Assembly: GCA_945883235.1 (NCBI GenBank)
Contig: CAMCXF010000002.1
Span: 62,001 to 126,000 of the forward strand
Direction of reading: 5' to 3'
DNA from: Phenylobacterium deserti
GTDB taxonomy: Bacteria > Pseudomonadota > Alphaproteobacteria > Caulobacterales > Caulobacteraceae
DNA: 64,000 bases
Below the pieces are notes generated by a model. It was given only the letters and a program-made list of their open reading frames with translations, had not been told where the DNA came from and did no database searches. Positions 1-7,540 of the stretch are shown piece by piece; position 1 is the stretch's first letter; the number at the start of each line of letters is the position of its first letter. A program made the position numbers and the translations under genes.

Positions 1-1
1 T

Positions 2-220
2 CGGATTCGGGTCAACGCCCTTTGTCCGGGCTGGGTGATCACCGAGCGCCAACTGGAGCTGTGGCTGACACCCGAGGCGGAGGCGGAACACTTGAAACTG
101 GTCGCGCTCAAGGACCGGATCATGCCGGACGATCTGGCCCGCGCGGCCCTGTTCCTGGCGTCGGACGACAGCCGCATGATGACCGGCCAGAACATGGTTG
201 TCGACGCAGGGCGCACCTGA
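2..220 (+). CDS. SDR-family oxidoreductase, C-terminal fragment (cut by window start)
   Basis: Only the last 72 codons are present; the frame is open to the window edge. The motif NALCPGW matches the N-A-x-x-P-G segment that follows the active site in short-chain dehydrogenases/reductases. The tail ALFLASDDSRMMTG followed by VVDAGR is the classic SDR C-terminus. The Rossmann fold and catalytic YxxxK lie outside the window, so the substrate cannot be read. Its stop overlaps the dgoK start by one base (TGATG), so it is probably the upstream gene of a sugar or sugar-acid operon, perhaps a galactose- or arabinose-type dehydrogenase (inference from context). Confidence 0.85.
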   Translation, partial: RIRVNALCPGWVITERQLELWLTPEAEAEHLKLVALKDRIMPDDLARAALFLASDDSRMMTGQNMVVDAGRT

Positions 221-1134
221 TGGCGACCGCTGCCTTGCTGGCCTGCGACTGGGGTACCACCAATCTGCGGGCGTGGACGCTTGATGCGGCGGGCGGTGTG
301 GTGGCCGAGCGGGAGTTTCCGTTTGGCGTGTCGAGACTGGGCCCCGGCGAGGCCGCTGTCCGCTTTGCGCAAGACGTGCGCCCGAGGCTGGGCGCGGAGA
401 GATTGCCGGCGATCCTTTGCGGCATGGTGGGGTCGAATCTTGGCTGGACGCCGGCCCCTTATGCCGATTGTCCGGTCAATTTGAGTGACCTCGCGTCGCA
501 TCTGGTTCAGCCGCCCGGCGCGGCGGACGTCCGGATTATTCCCGGCGTCCGCACCCGGGGATTCAACGGCCAGGGCGATGTGATGCGCGGCGAGGAGACG
601 CAAGCGTTCGGCTGGCTGGCGGCCCAACCGGAACGTGCGCAGGGTCGCCATCTGATCTGCCACCCCGGCACCCACACCAAGTGGATGGTCGTCGAGGACG
701 GGCGCTTGACCAGCTTCGTCACCGCGATGACCGGTGAGCTGTTCGCGGTGCTGGGCACCCACAGCGTTCTGCGCAGCGACGTTCCGCCAGATGACCTCGC
801 CGCCTTTGATCTGGGCGTCGCGGCGGCGGGGGATGGCGGCGGGCTGGCCGCGCGCCTGTTCACCACCCGCGCCCGCATGGTGGGGCAGGGCGCGCTGCCT
901 GAAAGCACCTCAAGCTACCTGTCGGGCCTGCTGATTGGCGCTGACGTGGCCGCGACGCCGGGCCTGCTGGGGATGGGCGAATTCGACACGCTGTCGCTGC
1001 TGGGCGATGCCCATTTGTGTGGCCTCTATGATCGGGCGCTCAAGGCCCGTGGCCAGTCGGCCGAAATCTTCGATGGAGAAGCTGCTGCCGTGGCTGGCCT
1101 CTTCGCCCTGTATCAGATGGGACAGCGCACATGA
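220..1134 (+). CDS. dgoK: 2-dehydro-3-deoxygalactonokinase (DgoK)
   Basis: Kinase of 304 aa that would phosphorylate 2-keto-3-deoxygalactonate in the De Ley-Doudoroff D-galactonate pathway. The N-terminal CDWGTTNLRAW (residues 9-19) is the sugar-kinase phosphate-1 loop. Later motifs HPGTHTKWM and TGELFAVL match the DgoK family as I recall it. The start at 220 is chosen because it overlaps the upstream stop (TGATG) and the glycine-rich loop then lies near the N-terminus; the frame is open further upstream but without family-like sequence. The stop overlaps the dgoA start (ATGA), so the two are translationally coupled. Length is normal for the family. Confidence 0.9.
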   Translation: MATAALLACDWGTTNLRAWTLDAAGGVVAEREFPFGVSRLGPGEAAVRFAQDVRPRLGAERLPAILCGMVGSNLGWTPAPYADCPVNLSDLASHLVQPPGAADVRIIPGVRTRGFNGQGDVMRGEETQAFGWLAAQPERAQGRHLICHPGTHTKWMVVEDGRLTSFVTAMTGELFAVLGTHSVLRSDVPPDDLAAFDLGVAAAGDGGGLAARLFTTRARMVGQGALPESTSSYLSGLLIGADVAATPGLLGMGEFDTLSLLGDAHLCGLYDRALKARGQSAEIFDGEAAAVAGLFALYQMGQRT

Positions 1135-1748
1135 CCCTCGACGAGGCCCTGGCCGAATGCTGCGTGGTGGCCATCCTGCGCGGAATCAAGCCGGACGAGG
1201 CGCTGGACCACGTCCAGGCCCTCTTCGACGCCGGGATCCGGGTCGTCGAGGTGCCGCTCAATTCCCCCGACCCGCTGGAGTCGATCTCCCGCGTCGCCAA
1301 GGCGTTCGGCGATCGCATGGTGGTGGGTGCGGGTACGGTGTTGACCGAGGCGCAGGTGGATGCGGTCCATGCAACGGGCGGAAAGCTGATCGTCTCGCCG
1401 AATGTGGACGTGGGCGTGATCCGGCGGACCGTTGCGCTGGGGCTCTGGTCCGCGCCGGGCTTTGCCACCGCCAGCGAGGCGTTCGCCGCCATCCACGCCG
1501 GCGCGCGACACCTGAAACTGTTCCCGGCGACGACCTTTGGCCCAGGACACCTGAAGCAGCTCGGGGCTGTCCTGCCGGCGGATGTCACGGTCGTCGCTGT
1601 GGGCGGCGTCGGTGCCGACAACATGGCCGACTGGCGGGCGGCGGGCGCCGGGGCGTTCGGGATCGGCGGCGAGCTCTATCGGCCTGGCCAGGGTGTGGCG
1701 GAGACGGCGAAACGGGCAGGCGGGGTTGTTGCGGCGGCCGGTTCATGA
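1131..1748 (+). CDS. dgoA: 2-dehydro-3-deoxy-6-phosphogalactonate aldolase (DgoA)
   Basis: Class I aldolase of 205 aa, KDPG/KDPGal family, cleaving the DgoK product to pyruvate and glyceraldehyde 3-phosphate. Visible family motifs: VAILRGI near residue 13, the general acid/base glutamate in VVEVPLN (E40), VGAGTVL near 65-71, and the Schiff-base lysine in HLKLFPA (K129). Coupling to dgoK by ATGA makes the galactonate isozyme more likely than the glucose-pathway Eda enzyme, though Eda cannot be strictly excluded. It is the last gene of the operon; the dusA remnant starts 20 bases downstream. Confidence 0.9.
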   Translation: MTLDEALAECCVVAILRGIKPDEALDHVQALFDAGIRVVEVPLNSPDPLESISRVAKAFGDRMVVGAGTVLTEAQVDAVHATGGKLIVSPNVDVGVIRRTVALGLWSAPGFATASEAFAAIHAGARHLKLFPATTFGPGHLKQLGAVLPADVTVVAVGGVGADNMADWRAAGAGAFGIGGELYRPGQGVAETAKRAGGVVAAAGS

Positions 1749-1807
1749 GGATGTGGTAGAAAGACGTGGTGACCACACTCCAACCCCATCGCCTCTCCGT
1801 CGCCCCG

Positions 1808-1820
1808 ATGATGGACTGGA
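1808..1820 (+). repeat. Left direct repeat, putative attachment core (dusA)
   Basis: ATGATGGACTGGA, a perfect 13-bp copy of 5669-5681. Immediately upstream both copies still encode A-P but differ at wobble bases (GCCCCG versus GCGCCC), which marks the edge of exact identity. Confidence 0.75.
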
Positions 1821-1857
1821 TAGAATTATTAATTAAATCAATAAATTATTGTTGGTT

Positions 1858-1878
1858 CGGTGCAAAAATTGTGCACCG
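1858..1878. repeat. Perfect 7-bp inverted repeat near island left end
   Basis: CGGTGCA and TGCACCG separated by seven bases (AAAATTG), about 40 bases inside the left boundary. It could be a terminator-like hairpin or a protein-binding site. Its arm resembles the ATGGTGC motif repeated upstream of hipB. Confidence 0.5.
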
Positions 1879-2092
1879 GCGTTCGCCTTCGTTCGTCCGA
1901 TCAGGCCCTGGTATGCCCGATAGGAATCCCCTCCTGACCCTATAGCCGGCGGTCGCACGGCGACCTTTTCGATCCTGCGCCACACTGCGCTGTCGCGCGC
2001 ACTGAATCTGGCGCTCAGGTCATGCATGGCCAGCTATGGGACACGGCTTCATCCATTGCGCATCGCTTGTTTGTCGCGCGCCCGGTCGGGAT

Positions 2093-3334
2093 TCAGGCGA
2101 CGGCGCGCGCCAGGTCCTCGTGCTGGAAGGCGCTGGCCATTCGGTCGATCTGGTTGGCGGTGAGACCATGTTGGCCGGCCACGTCGCGCCAGGTGGCGAC
2201 GACGTCACCGACCGCCTTGGCGATGGCGGCGGCCTCGTCCTTGTCGACCCGGAAGTAGGCGGCGATGCCCAGCACAGTGTCCAGGGAGGCGTCCTGGTCG
2301 GTCTCGTTTAGGGCTAGCGCGTGGATCCTTGGCTTCACGTCGACCGGCATGGGATTGAGATCGAAGGCCGGCGAGAGCCGCCAGCCGCCAGGCTCGCGCA
2401 GGAAACCGTGGTTGCGCAGGTGGTCGTCGGTGTTGGAGATCAGGACGTTGAACACCATCCGCCGCCAGAGCTGGGCCGCGTCGCCGGGAGCATCGGCGCC
2501 GTCCTGGCGCAGCACGTCCACAAGCTCCAGGTAGCTGCGAGTCTCGCCGTCGGCGGCGCCCAGCGCTGTAAGCGCCGAGCAGAACGGCCGACGGTGGCCA
2601 TCGGCCATCCGGTCGAAGCGGGACATCATGAACACCGGGCGCTTGGCGACGTGACGCAGTTGGAAGGGTGGGACGACCACGCCGGCCCGTTCGGCGAGCG
2701 TCATAGCCACCGACTCCCAGACCGGGATCGGCCAGTCGTCGGTCTGACTGGGGAACTTGGCCATCATGAGCTGGCCGTTGGCGTCGAGCACTGAGGCCTT
2801 CGGCCGCGCGCCGCCCAAGGAGCTGCCGGGGGCCAGCAGCAGGCGCAGGTCCTCGTCGGTCTCCTTGTCGTCGATGACGCGGCGGGCCGCCGCCAGCAGC
2901 TTCGGCAGGGCGACCAGCGGCGGGACGGGATGGGTGTCGGCCGCCTGGAAGGCCTCTGCGCCTTGGTCGCGGAAGCGCAGGGCGCCCAGGCGCGTCTGGT
3001 CATCCACCAGCATCAGGAAGTCCGCCTCCAGCAGGGTGCGTGGCGCGCGACCCTCCGCCTTGGCCAGCGCGCGTTCGCGCCGGCCCATCAGGCTGCGGCC
3101 CCAGCGATCGGGGGCCGGGTCGCTGAAGGCGTTGAAGAGGCCTCCATCCCAATGAGCGTCACCGCGCACCAGCGGTAGGTTGGGATCGAGCGGAAAGGCG
3201 CCGCTCAGGCCCAGCCAAGCGGCGTCATAGGCGAACGAGCAGGTCTGGCGCGCGCCCTTGGCCCGGGCCCAAAGGCGGCCTACCGGCAGCGTCGCCCCGT
3301 CCCAGTCGATATGCACCTCGATTTGACGTTCCAT
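2093..3334 (-). CDS. hipA: HipA-type serine/threonine kinase toxin
   Basis: Kinase of 413 aa with the HipA N-terminal domain (about 1-125) followed by the kinase domain. Visible motifs: glycine-rich loop GSSLGGARPKA (170-180), the ATP lysine in AKFPS (K193), catalytic-loop NTDDHLRNHGF (301-311) and metal-binding AFDLNP (D325). Known HipA toxins phosphorylate aminoacyl-tRNA synthetases such as GltX and halt translation, producing persistence; the target here is unknown. It starts one base after the hipB stop (TGA-G-ATG), the standard antitoxin-toxin order. All key residues are present, so the toxin appears intact. It is the main recognisable cargo of the dusA island. Confidence 0.9.
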   Translation of the reverse strand: MERQIEVHIDWDGATLPVGRLWARAKGARQTCSFAYDAAWLGLSGAFPLDPNLPLVRGDAHWDGGLFNAFSDPAPDRWGRSLMGRRERALAKAEGRAPRTLLEADFLMLVDDQTRLGALRFRDQGAEAFQAADTHPVPPLVALPKLLAAARRVIDDKETDEDLRLLLAPGSSLGGARPKASVLDANGQLMMAKFPSQTDDWPIPVWESVAMTLAERAGVVVPPFQLRHVAKRPVFMMSRFDRMADGHRRPFCSALTALGAADGETRSYLELVDVLRQDGADAPGDAAQLWRRMVFNVLISNTDDHLRNHGFLREPGGWRLSPAFDLNPMPVDVKPRIHALALNETDQDASLDTVLGIAAYFRVDKDEAAAIAKAVGDVVATWRDVAGQHGLTANQIDRMASAFQHEDLARAVA

Positions 3335-3335
3335 C

Positions 3336-3665
3336 TCAGCGGGCTTCCGCCTTGGCGCGGACCCGCTTGGGCAGTTGCTCCTCGGCCAGCGTCAGGCCTA
3401 CTTGGTCGGTGGCCGGATCGGCGAGGCTCGCCAGCCGGTCGGCCAGGCCCAGCACGAACAGCACCGTGGCGTAGATGCCGAGCGCCACGCCGGCGTCGCC
3501 GCGCTCCACCCGGGTGACGGTGTTGCGCCCGATGAAGGCGCGCTCCGCCAGGGTCGCGATGGTCATACTTCGGCGGCGGCGGGCCGTGGAGATGTCGCGC
3601 CCGAGCGTCGCCAGGGCGCGTTTGACGGGCAGGGGCAGGGCGGACTGGGCTTTGGAGGCCTTCAT
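3336..3665 (-). CDS. hipB: HipB-like XRE-family antitoxin/repressor
   Basis: Protein of 109 aa with an XRE-type helix-turn-helix at roughly residues 20-75 (RRRRSMTIATLAERAFIG and NTVTRVERGD match the recognition region). In HipBA systems HipB binds HipA and represses its own promoter. The start at 3665 is preferred: the frame continues 13 codons upstream but only this start leaves the promoter region free. A basic C-terminal tail (KRVRAKAEAR) follows. Likely autoregulated through sites in 3666-3934. Confidence 0.85.
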   Translation of the reverse strand: MKASKAQSALPLPVKRALATLGRDISTARRRRSMTIATLAERAFIGRNTVTRVERGDAGVALGIYATVLFVLGLADRLASLADPATDQVGLTLAEEQLPKRVRAKAEAR

Positions 3666-4085
3666 GATTGCACCAGAAGCGGGGGCCTGACTACGATAAC
3701 GCACGATTTATGGTGCGGAGGCTATTTTTACAAGCTTAACGACGCGGATGGTGCTCTATAAAATATGCGCAAAGCCGATTAGCGCGCGTTTTATGGTGCA
3801 ATGTTCGCTTCTTCCGGATCTTCGGTCTGAAGCCGCGTTCTGCCGACGCGACATAGTTCTATGCGACACATCCGCGGCTGCACATAATGTTCCTATTTCG
3901 TTCTTGACGCACATCTTCGATTGTGAGATGGTGCCGCGGCGTCGATCACTGCCGCGCGCCACCCGCCGCTGAGCGGACAAGGCGCCGCACCAAGAGCCAC
4001 GCACTCCTGATCATTGATCGCAGCGGCACAGCCGCTGCGCGCCCGCCGCCGCTCAGCGCGGGTCATTTCCATGAGGAGAGCACGC
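3666..4085. promoter_or_regulatory. hipBA upstream region with repeated ATGGTGC motif
   Basis: A 420-base stretch without a convincing gene. ATGGTGC occurs on the + strand at 3710-3716, 3748-3754, 3793-3799 and 3928-3934; the copy at 3791-3799 extends to TTATGGTGC, shared with 3708-3716. An inverted near-copy (TGCACCA) lies at 3669-3675 beside the hipB start. These are candidate HipB operators. The last ~100 bases lead into the 4086 gene. Confidence 0.45.
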
Positions 4086-4742
4086 ATGCCCTATGGCCAG
4101 ATCGATCCCGCGCGCCTCAATGGCGACGCGCTTACTCAGTGGTACTTGCGGTCGCCGGCGGAAATCGAAGAGGAGAAGCGCCAAGCCGCGAGCCGCGCCC
4201 ACAACGCCTTCTTTTCTCAGCCTGACGATCCTCGACCCCACGGCGGTTCAGAAGCCGCATCAATGCCCGCGGCGGCATCAACCGACGCGGGCTCAAGCCA
4301 TGCCGATGTCATTTGGCGGCAGATCGGCCCCAATCGGCTTCGGAGCGAGCGCGCATCCGTCCCACTGCAGATGTCGGATGCCGACACCAGCGGCTTTCAG
4401 CTCGCCGCGGCTACGTTCCCCGCTTGGGGCCGCTGGCCGATCAATGGATGCATCAATTGCCACAATCCGCGAACAGGAGACCTGCTCCCCGGTAGGGGTC
4501 CGGCTCCCAGCCCGCCGATGTTCAGTCCTAGAGCCGGAGGCTCAGGGGGAGGATCGTCGTCACGGAAGGGAGAGTGGAGCGACAAGCCTCAGTGCAACCA
4601 ACAATTCAACAATGATCGCAGGATCTGTCAGCAAGCGAAGTCGCCTAAATGCTGGGAGAACCAAATGGAGCGCCTAGCCACGTGCAATCGCACGGATTTG
4701 ATTGGGATACCTCAGCTCGGGTTCGGCCCGCCTGGGCGGTGA
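4086..4742 (+). CDS. Hypothetical cysteine-containing protein (island cargo)
   Basis: Protein of 218 aa that I cannot assign to a named family. The start at 4086 follows a strong ribosome-binding site (GAGGAGAG, 4073-4080). The N-terminal module contains YGQIDPARLNGDALTQWYLR and then SPAEIEEEKRQAA, a charged helical segment. The middle is low-complexity (Pro, Ala, Gly, Ser). A CINC pair lies near residue 119. The last ~55 residues carry four spaced cysteines (PQCNQQ, RICQQ, PKCWEN, ATCNR), suggesting a small Cys-stabilised domain. There is no signal peptide. A conserved leader plus a variable C-terminus resembles a polymorphic effector, but this is inference. It converges on 4712-5263 with a 31-bp overlap. 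Confidence 0.6.
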   Translation: MPYGQIDPARLNGDALTQWYLRSPAEIEEEKRQAASRAHNAFFSQPDDPRPHGGSEAASMPAAASTDAGSSHADVIWRQIGPNRLRSERASVPLQMSDADTSGFQLAAATFPAWGRWPINGCINCHNPRTGDLLPGRGPAPSPPMFSPRAGGSGGGSSSRKGEWSDKPQCNQQFNNDRRICQQAKSPKCWENQMERLATCNRTDLIGIPQLGFGPPGR

Positions 4743-5263
4743 GGGCGCGCGCATAACGGCGGGTCCAATTCCGGACCCGCCCATTCGGCGATGTTCGGGT
4801 GGATCGCTTCGGAAAAGCTGTAGATCGTGACGGCGCTGTCGGCTTCGTTCGTTGCGGTCCAGATGTCCAAGAACTTCCAGGTCGAACTGAGGCATATCAG
4901 CGCGTGCGACAAGGCATCTTCAGGGAGGCGAAGGCTCGCTTCGAACGGCGATCCTTCGTCGCCCATTCGATTCCGGTAGAAACGACCGACGTCCCCGCTG
5001 CGGGCGTTGAACCGAACCTTTCGGCCAAATGTAGAGATCCAAACCGAAATCTGCGCGCCACGATGGGGGCTCGGGGCGCGGATTCGGCCGGTAACGACAA
5101 CGGGCCGAGTGTACATAAGACCACCCTGGAACCGTTGGCTCGCGATCGCCCGCGGATGGCTCAGACCGACCGTCAGAGCCCAATTCCATTGTTCGATCTC
5201 GACCATGAACCGGCCGTTGAAGAATGAGGGATCGGGAGTTGTTCTCGAAGTGTCGGTCGACAT
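4712..5263 (-). CDS. Hypothetical protein, possible partner of the 4086 gene
   Basis: Soluble protein of 183 aa, no signal peptide or membrane segment, family not recognised. It looks beta-rich: FMVEIEQWNWAL, VVVTGRIRAPSPHRGAQ and ISVWISTFG suggest a compact beta-sandwich, and a Trp-rich helical part follows (STWKFLDIW). Its 3' end overlaps the convergent 4086-4742 gene by 31 bp; both lie inside the dusA island. A converging pair could be effector and immunity protein, but such pairs are more often co-directional, so this is weak inference. Confidence 0.55.
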   Translation of the reverse strand: MSTDTSRTTPDPSFFNGRFMVEIEQWNWALTVGLSHPRAIASQRFQGGLMYTRPVVVTGRIRAPSPHRGAQISVWISTFGRKVRFNARSGDVGRFYRNRMGDEGSPFEASLRLPEDALSHALICLSSTWKFLDIWTATNEADSAVTIYSFSEAIHPNIAEWAGPELDPPLCARPHRPGGPNPS

Positions 5264-5635
5264 GGTGAGTCCAGCGTCGGGAAAGGAGGTTGGCTAGCCG
5301 ACCCAGAGTATTCGTTTTGTTCTGCTCGATCCAGCCGTGTCAACAGCTGCGTCCAAAGTCGGCGCGATGCGGGGCTCGCATCACGTTTCGCGGCTATGGG
5401 AGAGCTGCGGCGTTTTTCCTTGAGTTATCGTCTGGGTGGAATTCTATAATCTAAAGGTTATCGGCTAGGGCCTGCGATCGCCTGTGTTCACATGTGAGTG
5501 GATGCACGGGCGGCACATCCTAACGTCGATCTGCCCGACATTCCGCCACCCGGATTGCACACCTACTTTTCTAAGAGCATGAAAATACCAATGAATCCGT
5601 CCAATCCAGTATAGGGTCGATTTTGGCCAAAATTG
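5264..5635. other. Gene-free right end of island
   Basis: 372 bases with no supported gene, becoming AT-rich toward dusA. It contains the promoter-like pair at 5420-5450. No integrase or excisionase fragment was recognised. Confidence 0.5.
5420..5450 (+). promoter_or_regulatory. Possible sigma70-type promoter supplied to dusA
   Basis: TTGAGT (5420-5425) and a perfect TATAAT (5445-5450), with a somewhat long 19-base spacer, about 185 bases upstream of the rebuilt dusA start. It could replace the promoter lost through insertion. Confidence 0.35.
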
Positions 5636-6667
5636 ATGAATAAAAACAATAAGTTATCCATTGCGCCCATGATGGACTGGACGGACCGGCATTGCCGCGT
5701 GCTGCATCGCACGCTGACGCGGCGCAGCCTTCTTTACACCGAGATGGTGACGACGGGGGCGGTCTTGCACGGGGATCGGGCGCGGTTGCTGGGGTTTAGT
5801 CCGGTTGAGCACCCCGTGGCGCTGCAGCTGGGTGGGTCGGACCCCGTCGATCTGGTCGCGACAGCGCGGATCGGCGAGGCCGAGGGCTATGACGAGATCA
5901 ACCTCAACGTCGGGTGTCCGTCGGACCGGGTGCAGTCGGGGCGGTTTGGTGCCTGCCTGATGCGTGAGCCGGAACTGGTGGCCGAGTGCATGGCGGCGAT
6001 GGGCGCGGCGGTGAAGGTTCCGGTGACCGTGAAGTGCCGGATCGGGGTGGATGATCAGGAGCCGGAGGATAGCCTGTTCCGGCTGGTGGAGCTCTGCTCA
6101 CAGGCCGGGGTGAAGCTGTTCGCGGTGCATGCGCGCAAGGCGCTGCTGAAGGGGCTGTCGCCCAAGGAAAACCGCGATGTGCCGCCGCTGAACTATCCGC
6201 TGGTCTGGCGATTGAAGCAGGAACGTCCGGACCTGACCATCGTCATCAACGGCGGGATCGGGTCACTGGATGAGGCTGAGGAACATCTGCGCCATGTGGA
6301 CGGCGTGATGCTGGGCAGGGCGGCCTATCACACGCCCTCGATCCTGGCGGATGTGGACGCGCGGATTTTCGGCGAAGGCCCGGGGCCTGGACCGTTCGCG
6401 GCGGTCGAGGCTTATCGCGATTATGTGGGTCGCGAACTGGCGCGCGGCACGCATCTGGCGGCCATGACGCGACACATGCTTGGGCTGTTCCACGGCATGC
6501 CGGGGGCCCGGACCTGGCGACGGATCCTTACCGTTGAAGGCGTGAAGTCAGGCGCAGGGCTTGAGGTGATCGACCACGCGCTGGCCGCCGTCTCAGGGTT
6601 CGAAGCGCAGCGTGTCGCGGGTGGCCTCGAAGCGGGTGAGGCGGCCCAGGTAGCTCATTCCCAGTAG
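5636..6667 (+). CDS. dusA: tRNA-dihydrouridine synthase A (DusA)
   Basis: Flavoenzyme of 343 aa reducing uridine to dihydrouridine in the tRNA D-loop (U20/U20a in E. coli). Family motifs are complete: APMMDWTDRHCR near the N-terminus, QLGGSDP, INLNVGCPSDRVQSGRFGAC (with the catalytic cysteine), KCRIGVDD, VHARKALLKGLSP, INGGI and MLGRAAYHTP. The ATG at 5636 is preferred to the TTG at 5633. The first residues (NKNNKLSI) are encoded by AT-rich island DNA and differ from the original N-terminus preserved at 1769. No clear Shine-Dalgarno is visible. The last ~25 codons overlap the convergent protease gene and look unlike a normal DusA tail. Confidence 0.93.
   Translation: MNKNNKLSIAPMMDWTDRHCRVLHRTLTRRSLLYTEMVTTGAVLHGDRARLLGFSPVEHPVALQLGGSDPVDLVATARIGEAEGYDEINLNVGCPSDRVQSGRFGACLMREPELVAECMAAMGAAVKVPVTVKCRIGVDDQEPEDSLFRLVELCSQAGVKLFAVHARKALLKGLSPKENRDVPPLNYPLVWRLKQERPDLTIVINGGIGSLDEAEEHLRHVDGVMLGRAAYHTPSILADVDARIFGEGPGPGPFAAVEAYRDYVGRELARGTHLAAMTRHMLGLFHGMPGARTWRRILTVEGVKSGAGLEVIDHALAAVSGFEAQRVAGGLEAGEAAQVAHSQ
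5669..5681 (+). repeat. Right direct repeat, putative attachment core (dusA)
   Basis: ATGATGGACTGGA, identical to 1808-1820, encoding M-M-D-W of the intact dusA. It marks the right boundary of the island. Confidence 0.75.
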
Positions 6668-7099
6668 CGACACGTCCAGACCCTCGGCGACCACCAGGGC
6701 CTTGACGTCCTGCAGGCGGGCGCCATTGACGGACACCGACGTCAGGGTCACCTGGGCCGCCCGCGTCGAGCCGGTGGCGGTGGTGACGCTGTGGCCGTAT
6801 TTGAGATCGGCGGGCTTGAAGCCCAGGCGTTGCGCGTCGGCGGGGGTCAGGGCCACCGCCGTGGCGCCCGTGTCGACCAGGAAGCGCACGCGCTGGCCAT
6901 TGACGTCAGCGTCGGCCCAGAAGTGGCCGTCAGAGGCCTTGGCCACCGCGCCGGACCCCGACCACGGCGCCGATGGCGCAAAGCCTTTCACCTCGAAGCG
7001 CGCGATGCGCATCGGCTCATGGTCCACGGCGGCGACCGCGCCGGCGCTGGCCAGCGCCGCGAGCCCAGCCGCAACGGCGAGTTTAATGAGAGAAAACAC
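6593..7099 (-). CDS. Retropepsin-like aspartic protease, exported
   Basis: Protein of 168 aa matching the clan AA single-domain aspartic protease family (TIGR02281-like). A GTG start is followed by an N-terminal hydrophobic signal or anchor (residues 1-24). The active-site motif FLVDTGATAVALTPADA gives the catalytic D-T-G, and SLLGMSYLGRL is the second hydrophobic-hydrophobic-glycine segment. Such proteases act as homodimers in the envelope; substrate unknown. Its 3' end overlaps the dusA 3' end by 75 bp, tail to tail. Confidence 0.85.
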   Translation of the reverse strand: MFSLIKLAVAAGLAALASAGAVAAVDHEPMRIARFEVKGFAPSAPWSGSGAVAKASDGHFWADADVNGQRVRFLVDTGATAVALTPADAQRLGFKPADLKYGHSVTTATGSTRAAQVTLTSVSVNGARLQDVKALVVAEGLDVSLLGMSYLGRLTRFEATRDTLRFEP

Positions 7100-7205
7100 C
7101 CGGCATCACCCAAATGAAGCGGCCATTCCGGCCTGTCTTGCTGACGTGAAACTAGGCCGGGTTAGGTTTGGAAGCGGTGAACCGGCACGGTTTCCGGGGG
7201 GTGAA

Positions 7206-7412
7206 TCAAAACATCGCCAGTTTCTCGGGGCGGATCAGGGTGCGCCGCGCGGGCAGGGTGACCATGATCGCCTCGCGCTCGTCGTCGCTGTAGCGGCCCC
7301 AGGCGGCGACCTCGCTCAGTTTTCGATAGCAGCCCATGCACAGGCCGCTCTCGCCATCGACGATGCAGAGCTTGATGCAGGGGGTTTTCACGGGAGTGGG
7401 GGCTATGCTCAT
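7206..7412 (-). CDS. DUF1289 family small cysteine protein
   Basis: Protein of 68 aa with the DUF1289 pattern: TPCIKLCIVD, then LCMGCYRKLSEVAAW, giving four cysteines likely to bind metal or an Fe-S cluster, and W followed by SDDEREAIM. Function unknown. Its start overlaps the stop of the upstream thioesterase remnant (ATGA), so it was probably the downstream gene of a two-gene operon whose first gene has decayed. Confidence 0.85.
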   Translation of the reverse strand: MSIAPTPVKTPCIKLCIVDGESGLCMGCYRKLSEVAAWGRYSDDEREAIMVTLPARRTLIRPEKLAMF

Positions 7413-7540
7413 CCAGGTATAGCGTAGGTGACATTGGCCTGGGCCGCCAGTCGCTCGGGGCTCTCGGTCCAGATGCGGATGTCACAGACCGCCAGCCTGC
7501 GGCCCAGTCGCAACAGTTCGGCGTCCGCCGGGCAGAAGTC
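7409..7540 (-). pseudogene. Remnant of PaaI-type hotdog thioesterase (C-terminus only)
   Basis: An open frame from 7648 ends with LRLGRRLAVCDIRIW and AQANVTYAIP, the C-terminal strands of PaaI/hotdog acyl-CoA thioesterases. The preceding ~37 residues (back to 7648) do not look like the family and lack the helix and active-site region. A gene of ~140 codons has therefore lost its 5' two thirds. The stop still overlaps the DUF1289 start. DNA from 7541 to 7836 holds no supported gene. Confidence 0.6.

Follow-up and report, generated by a model that had tools for sequence, protein, structure and literature searches.

Why does the 5' end of dusA occur twice in this part of the Phenylobacterium deserti genome, with a segment between the two copies that carries cargo and no visible integrase? 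The locus lies in the window, the whole stretch of 64,000 nt that was analysed (contig CAMCXF010000002.1, positions 62,001 to 126,000). An earlier, sequence-only reading had left open whether the segment is a decayed remnant or an element mobilised in trans. We found that the segment, 3.86 kb between two dusA attachment sites, is an insertion into native dusA. With a probability of about 0.68, we regard it as a non-autonomous, cargo-only dusA island resembling a cis-mobilizable element (CIME), inserted by an integrase that acted in trans or came from a neighbouring island in tandem. The insertion site comprises the following features.

1766..1820, + strand: 5' end of native dusA, truncated by the insertion
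1796..1820, + strand: left attachment site, a 25-nt imperfect direct repeat with a 13-bp core at 1808-1820
5657..5681, + strand: right attachment site, the other copy of the 25-nt imperfect direct repeat, with the core at 5669-5681
5636..6667, + strand: dusA with its start supplied by the island (MNKNNKLSIAPMMDW), 343 amino acids (Pfam Dus, E 1.5e-77; NCBIfam DusA, E 4.6e-151)

The remnant starts with GTG at 1766 (GTG at 1769 is also in frame), reads VVTTLQPHRLSVAPMMDW and then enters island sequence. It breaks off at the dusA codons APMMDW, the insertion point, where the imperfect direct repeats lie. The two 25-nt repeats are 84% identical, and their exact 13-mer, ATGATGGACTGGA, has just two copies in the window (1808 and 5669, + strand in each case). 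The old 5' end of dusA was left at the far boundary and a new one was contributed by the island. Both edges of the segment are AT-rich (80% over the 40 nt at 1821-1860 and 65% at 5600-5665, against 35% for the whole window); window-wide, only 0.02% of 40-mers and 0.1% of 66-mers are equally so. The surviving original start, the intact dusA from 5636, the perfect 13-bp repeat and the AT-edged DNA with hipBA and two unknown genes, all noticed by the sequence-only reading, were thereby confirmed.

An empty site was found in a congener, G098 (G numbers are our handles for genomes), whose uninterrupted dusA encodes a protein 89% identical in the genome search. Nucleotides 1780-1820 of the window (41 nt) align to positions 5061-5101 of the G098 locus L128 with 92.7% identity, and nucleotides 5657-7528 align to positions 5077-6946 with 81.6% identity; on G098 the two alignments overlap by the 25-nt site. 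Joining the flanks in the window yields an open DusA that starts VVTTLQPHRLSVAPMMDWTDRHC and is 90.6% identical to that of G098 over 341 amino acids.

No integrase could be detected in the segment, as had been claimed. A profile built from 12 of the DAI proteins, the tyrosine integrases of known dusA islands (one of the 12 a fragment), gave only matches with E >= 4.9 in the window, and the best tblastn match of these proteins to window 1701-5700 had an E value of 0.076. The four open reading frames (ORFs) of the island matched no recombination or transfer family in Pfam, NCBIfam or PHROG.

Both ends of the segment carry features that could be compared with those of other islands.

1821..1859, + strand: AT-rich left end; counted from the core, 89 nt match the corresponding end of the G084 island with 85% identity
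1860..1876, + strand: arm-like half-site pair GTGCAAAAATTGTGCAC, exactly 40 nt past the 12-nt core
5424..5681, + strand: conserved right end, here called type W, similar to ends in G365, G084, G075 and G015
5555..5560, + strand: TTGCAC, a single arm-like half-site at -114 from the right core, in the same place in four of nine type W ends

The left end has the usual layout of DAI islands, that is, a 12-nt core, exactly 40 nt and GTGC, mostly with a second half-site behind; together with the empty site in G098, this bears out the claim of a dusA-specific island. Within it lies AATCAATAAATTA, an IHF-like sequence. We scanned 101 genomes of the genus for the core, 40 nt and GTGC, allowing at most one mismatch. 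The scan returned 36 sites in 31 genomes, 22 of them exact, including that of the window; the reversed control gave 2. Nine of the 14 one-mismatch sites appeared unrelated by eye, six of these being one recurring gene. The left ends of the DAI islands of G058, the core of which deviates, and of G052 were absent from the matches. The left-end pattern was also found in 14 contigs of viral_contigs, none of which is a dusA site or matches a DAI or the ends of the window island. A viral vehicle was therefore rejected, and exact matches to the pattern evidently arise by chance in large collections.

The right end is of a different kind. In 15 of 16 DAI right ends a paired GTGC motif occurs at -146/-147, and the right end in the window is without it; a DAI-type motif near -147 is also present in two of 28 loci without a DAI, in G023 and, at -140, in G054. 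Nine type W ends were recognised in seven genomes: the window's own, G084, G365 (which belongs to another genus of the family), G075 (two), G015, G002 and G034 (two). Similarity to the window, core included, is strong for G365 (73% over 262 columns), G084 (76% over 153), one end of G075 (88% over 89) and G015 (73% over 111). The motif TTGCACACGG at -114 is exact in G084, has one mismatch in G365 and in G075b, and two in the window, a level reached by 14% of random stretches and thus weak evidence for the window alone. When window 5400-5668 was searched against 390 genomes of the family, it was found in five, its own included, which represent two of 22 genera. None of the nine type W ends has an integrase next to it, the farther end in G075 having just 2.8 kb of contig upstream. 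A parent combining a type W right end with an integrase was found neither in the 101 genus nor in the 390 family genomes.

The 5' end of dusA is a hotspot in Phenylobacterium. From the 101 genomes of the genus, we classified the 51 dusA loci that were available, including that of the source genome, looking for a DAI within 1.5 kb upstream of dusA (127 bp for G068 and 966 for G086). An intact DAI lies directly upstream in 17 loci and a DAI fragment in six; the remaining 28 have none within the stretch examined and comprise GC-rich, native-looking starts (G098 and others) as well as AT-richer starts that look island-derived. Five islands are bounded by cores on both sides and have no detectable tyrosine integrase (2.2-28.3 kb); the left ends of all five are among the 22 exact matches of the scan.

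Window island, 3.86 kb: hipBA, ORF3, ORF4
G075 island, 7.16 kb: porin, metal-responsive repressor, ABC transporter, DUF433/DUF5615 pair
G002 island, 9.05 kb: helicase, DUF2130, ParB, AbiEi/AbiEii
G034 island, 2.18 kb: ORF of 462 amino acids without a Pfam match
G084 island, 28.3 kb: mechanosensitive channels, trehalose synthesis, superoxide dismutase and others

Counting the DUF433/DUF5615 pair of G075, which we take to be of toxin-antitoxin type, a toxin-antitoxin-like pair occurs in three of the five. The window and G084 islands have in common their left ends (85% over 89 nt) and right ends (76% over 153 nt); apart from these no BLASTN match was obtained at E 1e-8, and their cargo is not shared. 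Among eight segments compared by BLASTN, only ends matched, except for a DUF302 gene common to G084 and G365. In these two genomes (loci L116/L136 and L245, respectively) the type W end sits on larger DNA with stress-type genes, in which no integrase was found: channels, trehalose, superoxide dismutase and DUF302, and patatin, phospholipase D and Fic. In G034 (L053, 14283-18117), dusA is preceded by two neighbouring segments without an integrase, of 1.7 and 2.2 kb, each smaller than the window island; the 1.7-kb segment has no recognisable left end.

DAI and general integrase models at E 0.1 gave no match in eight island segments, and in six island-bearing relatives and G098 no PF00589 match fell within the integrase-less islands. 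The DAIs adjoining dusA are the sole PF00589 matches on the contigs that carry the islands of G075 and G002. In both, the order is integrase-less island, DAI island (about 63 or 60 kb, with no internal attachment core), dusA. In G084, a segment ending in a broken DAI is followed by the type W island and then dusA; if each insertion enters next to dusA, so that nearer means newer, this type W island seems to be later than a DAI island. Serine recombinases were sought by Pfam in part of the ORFs, with no genome-wide search, and none was found in the window (4 of 4 ORFs checked), G075 (6/7), G002 (5/7), G034 (2/4), G365 (6/14) or G084 (19/29); none was sent for G015, and the denominators come from ORF lists with differing length limits.

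These data lean towards mobilisation in trans over decay, because a related integrase-less right end recurs in seven genomes with differing cargo. Movement of the island is inferred, from sequence comparison. A DAI-type tyrosine integrase encoded by another dusA island would have recombined the circular site of the island with native dusA. It may have acted wholly in trans or during a tandem arrangement of the two islands, and no helper would have remained after insertion. HipBA, and perhaps ORF3 and ORF4 too, may then select against loss of the island. The start codon of dusA, and presumably its promoter, is now island-derived, so that tRNA modification should be retained. If a DAI were supplied again, it should excise the island and restore the native frame of dusA.

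Several observations weigh against this explanation. Not every left end follows the common layout, the DAI island of G052 having no GTGC at that place. The half-site layout of the right end (TTGCAC at -114 in four of nine ends) differs from that of DAI islands, so that a DAI may not act on a type W end; the -114 motif itself is missing from five of the nine (G075a, G015, G034a, G034b and G002b). Beyond the ends with strong similarity, type W ends resemble that of the window over 49-84 nt only, core included. Most of the compared genomes are drafts. Finally, the source genome contains no DAI, which makes current mobility doubtful and suggests that the island may be stranded: a helper DAI there was rejected, since none of its 14 PF00589 matches (13 above cut-off, none on the contig of the window) is DAI-like and DAI queries gave at best a partial match of 28%.

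The strongest rival, which we consider unlikely, is that a larger DAI island lost its integrase and most of its cargo by internal deletion and left an ordinary decayed remnant with both ends. It requires no movement without an integrase; DAIs commonly decay in place in the genus, as the fragments at six of 51 loci show, and CIMEs are described as decayed by deletion in the sections consulted of PMC7563491. In addition, a 140-kb DAI dusA island in G082 (L273, G082:C34:250000-262000) has a hipBA homologue (85% identity in HipA) about 1.8 kb inside its left end and in the same orientation; in the stretches read, no further attachment core lies between this left end and dusA, about 140 kb away. 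Nevertheless, all six decayed loci keep traces of the DAI and the window keeps none. Furthermore, DAI genes start at -152 to -154 from the core (5 of 16, those located by pattern), yet the homology between the right end in the window and the integrase-less island end of G365 extends to about -245. As this homology passes the DAI start, the ancestor of the type W ends probably had no DAI at this position.

It is far less probable that the cargo was assembled in place, with hipBA and ORF3/ORF4 entering by ordinary recombination between the two ends of an earlier, empty scar at dusA. The cargo modules do appear to be separately sourced, as different genomes provide the matches to window 2112-3803 (hipBA loci) and to 3887-4607 (an ORF3/ORF4 locus), but no near-empty type W scar occurs among the segments examined, the smallest of which (1.7 and 2.2 kb) both contain ORFs. 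That two dusA-like starts arose by chance or by misassembly, without a mobile element, can be dismissed: the core does encode a conserved DusA motif common to any dusA fragment and the draft assembly of the source genome has 109 contigs, but the locus is internal to a contig of 160 kb, G098 has the site in its empty state, the two ends have counterparts at islands of other genomes, and G084, with the same ends and different cargo, refutes the idea in practice.

Beyond the single island, we tentatively suggest, with rather more doubt than confidence, that the type W islands form a satellite lineage of their own that depends on DAIs. Its members would have conserved integrase-binding ends, a characteristic right end and interchangeable cargo of toxin-antitoxin, transport and stress genes, would lack an integrase gene in every known case, and would use the DAIs of neighbouring dusA islands in at least two genera of Caulobacteraceae.

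The cargo of the window island consists of four genes.

2093..3334, - strand: hipA, HipA-like kinase toxin, 413 amino acids (HipA_C, E 9.8e-47; Couple_hipA, E 3.6e-6)
3336..3704, - strand: hipB, helix-turn-helix antitoxin, adjoining hipA (couple_hipB, E 5.9e-7; HTH_31, E 9.7e-5; both below curated cut-offs)
4086..4742, + strand: ORF3, with a Cys-rich C-terminal half; homologues are 36-72% identical
4712..5263, - strand: ORF4, found in 21 of 390 family genomes, its own included

The first two are predicted to form a HipBA pair, with N- and C-terminal HipA domains and a HipB-like helix-turn-helix partner encoded directly upstream. The kinase domain matches solved HipT/HipA chains, and the stretch NTDDHLRNHGF, aligned with solved HipA relatives, is kept. 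Eight further Phenylobacterium genomes have hipBA homologues with 82-87% identity in HipA (as two fragments in G011). ORF3 had no Pfam match above cut-off and none in PADLOC, NCBIfam or PHROG, ORF4 had none in any of these four, and neither was matched in a plasmid collection. The two genes overlap tail to tail. Among ten ORF4 loci examined, this convergent pair recurs in four, and ORF4 stands in two to four tandem copies in five. It is possible that ORF3 and ORF4 form a toxin-immunity pair.

The sequence-only reading had predicted that an empty site would show a continuous dusA with dgoA directly upstream. The first part holds for G098; the second does not, as dgoA (KDPG/KHG aldolase family) precedes dusA in the window and a different gene does so in G098, by reading and without a family search a luciferase-like monooxygenase. 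The latter gene corresponds to C2:28320-31460 in the source genome, some 32 kb upstream of the remnant of dusA, and we therefore regard the dgoA neighbourhood as a separate rearrangement. The intervening stretch of about 32 kb in the source genome (G000, C2:31461-63779), which holds dgoA and its neighbours and ends as window 1-1779, separates dusA from that gene; many of its genes look related to catabolism or transport by eye. That it might be another dusA island was rejected, as it has no second attachment core within it or at its far side. In a partial test, many of the collected relative loci ending inside their own islands, dgoA and galK were found in the window only. On the other side, a gene for a retropepsin-like aspartic protease (6593-7099, opposite strand) overlaps the 3' end of dusA, and such a gene adjoins dusA in all 29 relative loci looked at.

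Islands at dusA are known from a survey (Farrugia 2015, PMC4482086) that, in the sections consulted, found them via the integrase common to all 94, gave a range of 4.8-185 kb with a minimum of 4,758 bp, and named islands in Phenylobacterium zucineum and Caulobacter sp. K31. Because it starts from the integrase gene, such a survey is blind to integrase-less islands. The window island shares with those described there the site in the 5' end of dusA, the imperfect direct repeats and the new dusA start; unlike them, it has no DAI gene beside dusA and a right end of another type. The suggestion that it is among the smallest dusA islands fits, in that 3.86 kb is below this published minimum; the smallest it is not, the G034 island having 2.18 kb. 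Among the titles listed by the literature searches, none concerned integrase-less dusA islands. As far as the consulted parts of the papers cited here go, elements with attachment sites and no recombinase are already known at other genes, and integrase-less islands at dusA appear to be new.

The closest parallels are the CIMEs of Streptococcus (PMC7563491), which, as described in the parts consulted, keep their attachment sites, have lost their recombination genes and span 1.2-13 kb with cargo. The window island likewise keeps both attachment sites, whose function is predicted, and has no recombination or transfer module, and the tandem order of CIME, active element and target gene is matched in G075 and G002. 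In contrast, CIMEs derive from integrative and conjugative or integrative and mobilizable elements at other genes and are defined there as decayed, whereas here an integrase-less type of right end recurs in several genomes. Of the ssrA genomic islands of Dehalococcoides, 15 of 31 are without an integration module and were suggested to be cis-mobilizable, according to the sections consulted of PMC3146451; they too form tandem arrays at one gene, but with serine recombinases and at the tmRNA gene instead of dusA. HipAB on GI21/CGI48 of Shewanella putrefaciens was shown to stabilise that island (PMC8978831, parts consulted). Both islands thus carry this toxin-antitoxin pair, although GI21 has integrase and excisionase genes of its own, is of the yicC type and lies inside an island in tRNA-Trp. 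Recurrent toxin-antitoxin cargo would explain how an island unable to move itself persists at dusA. The end sequences suffice for recognising islands of this kind, and if DAIs do act in trans, one integrase would serve several cargo-only islands at a single gene.

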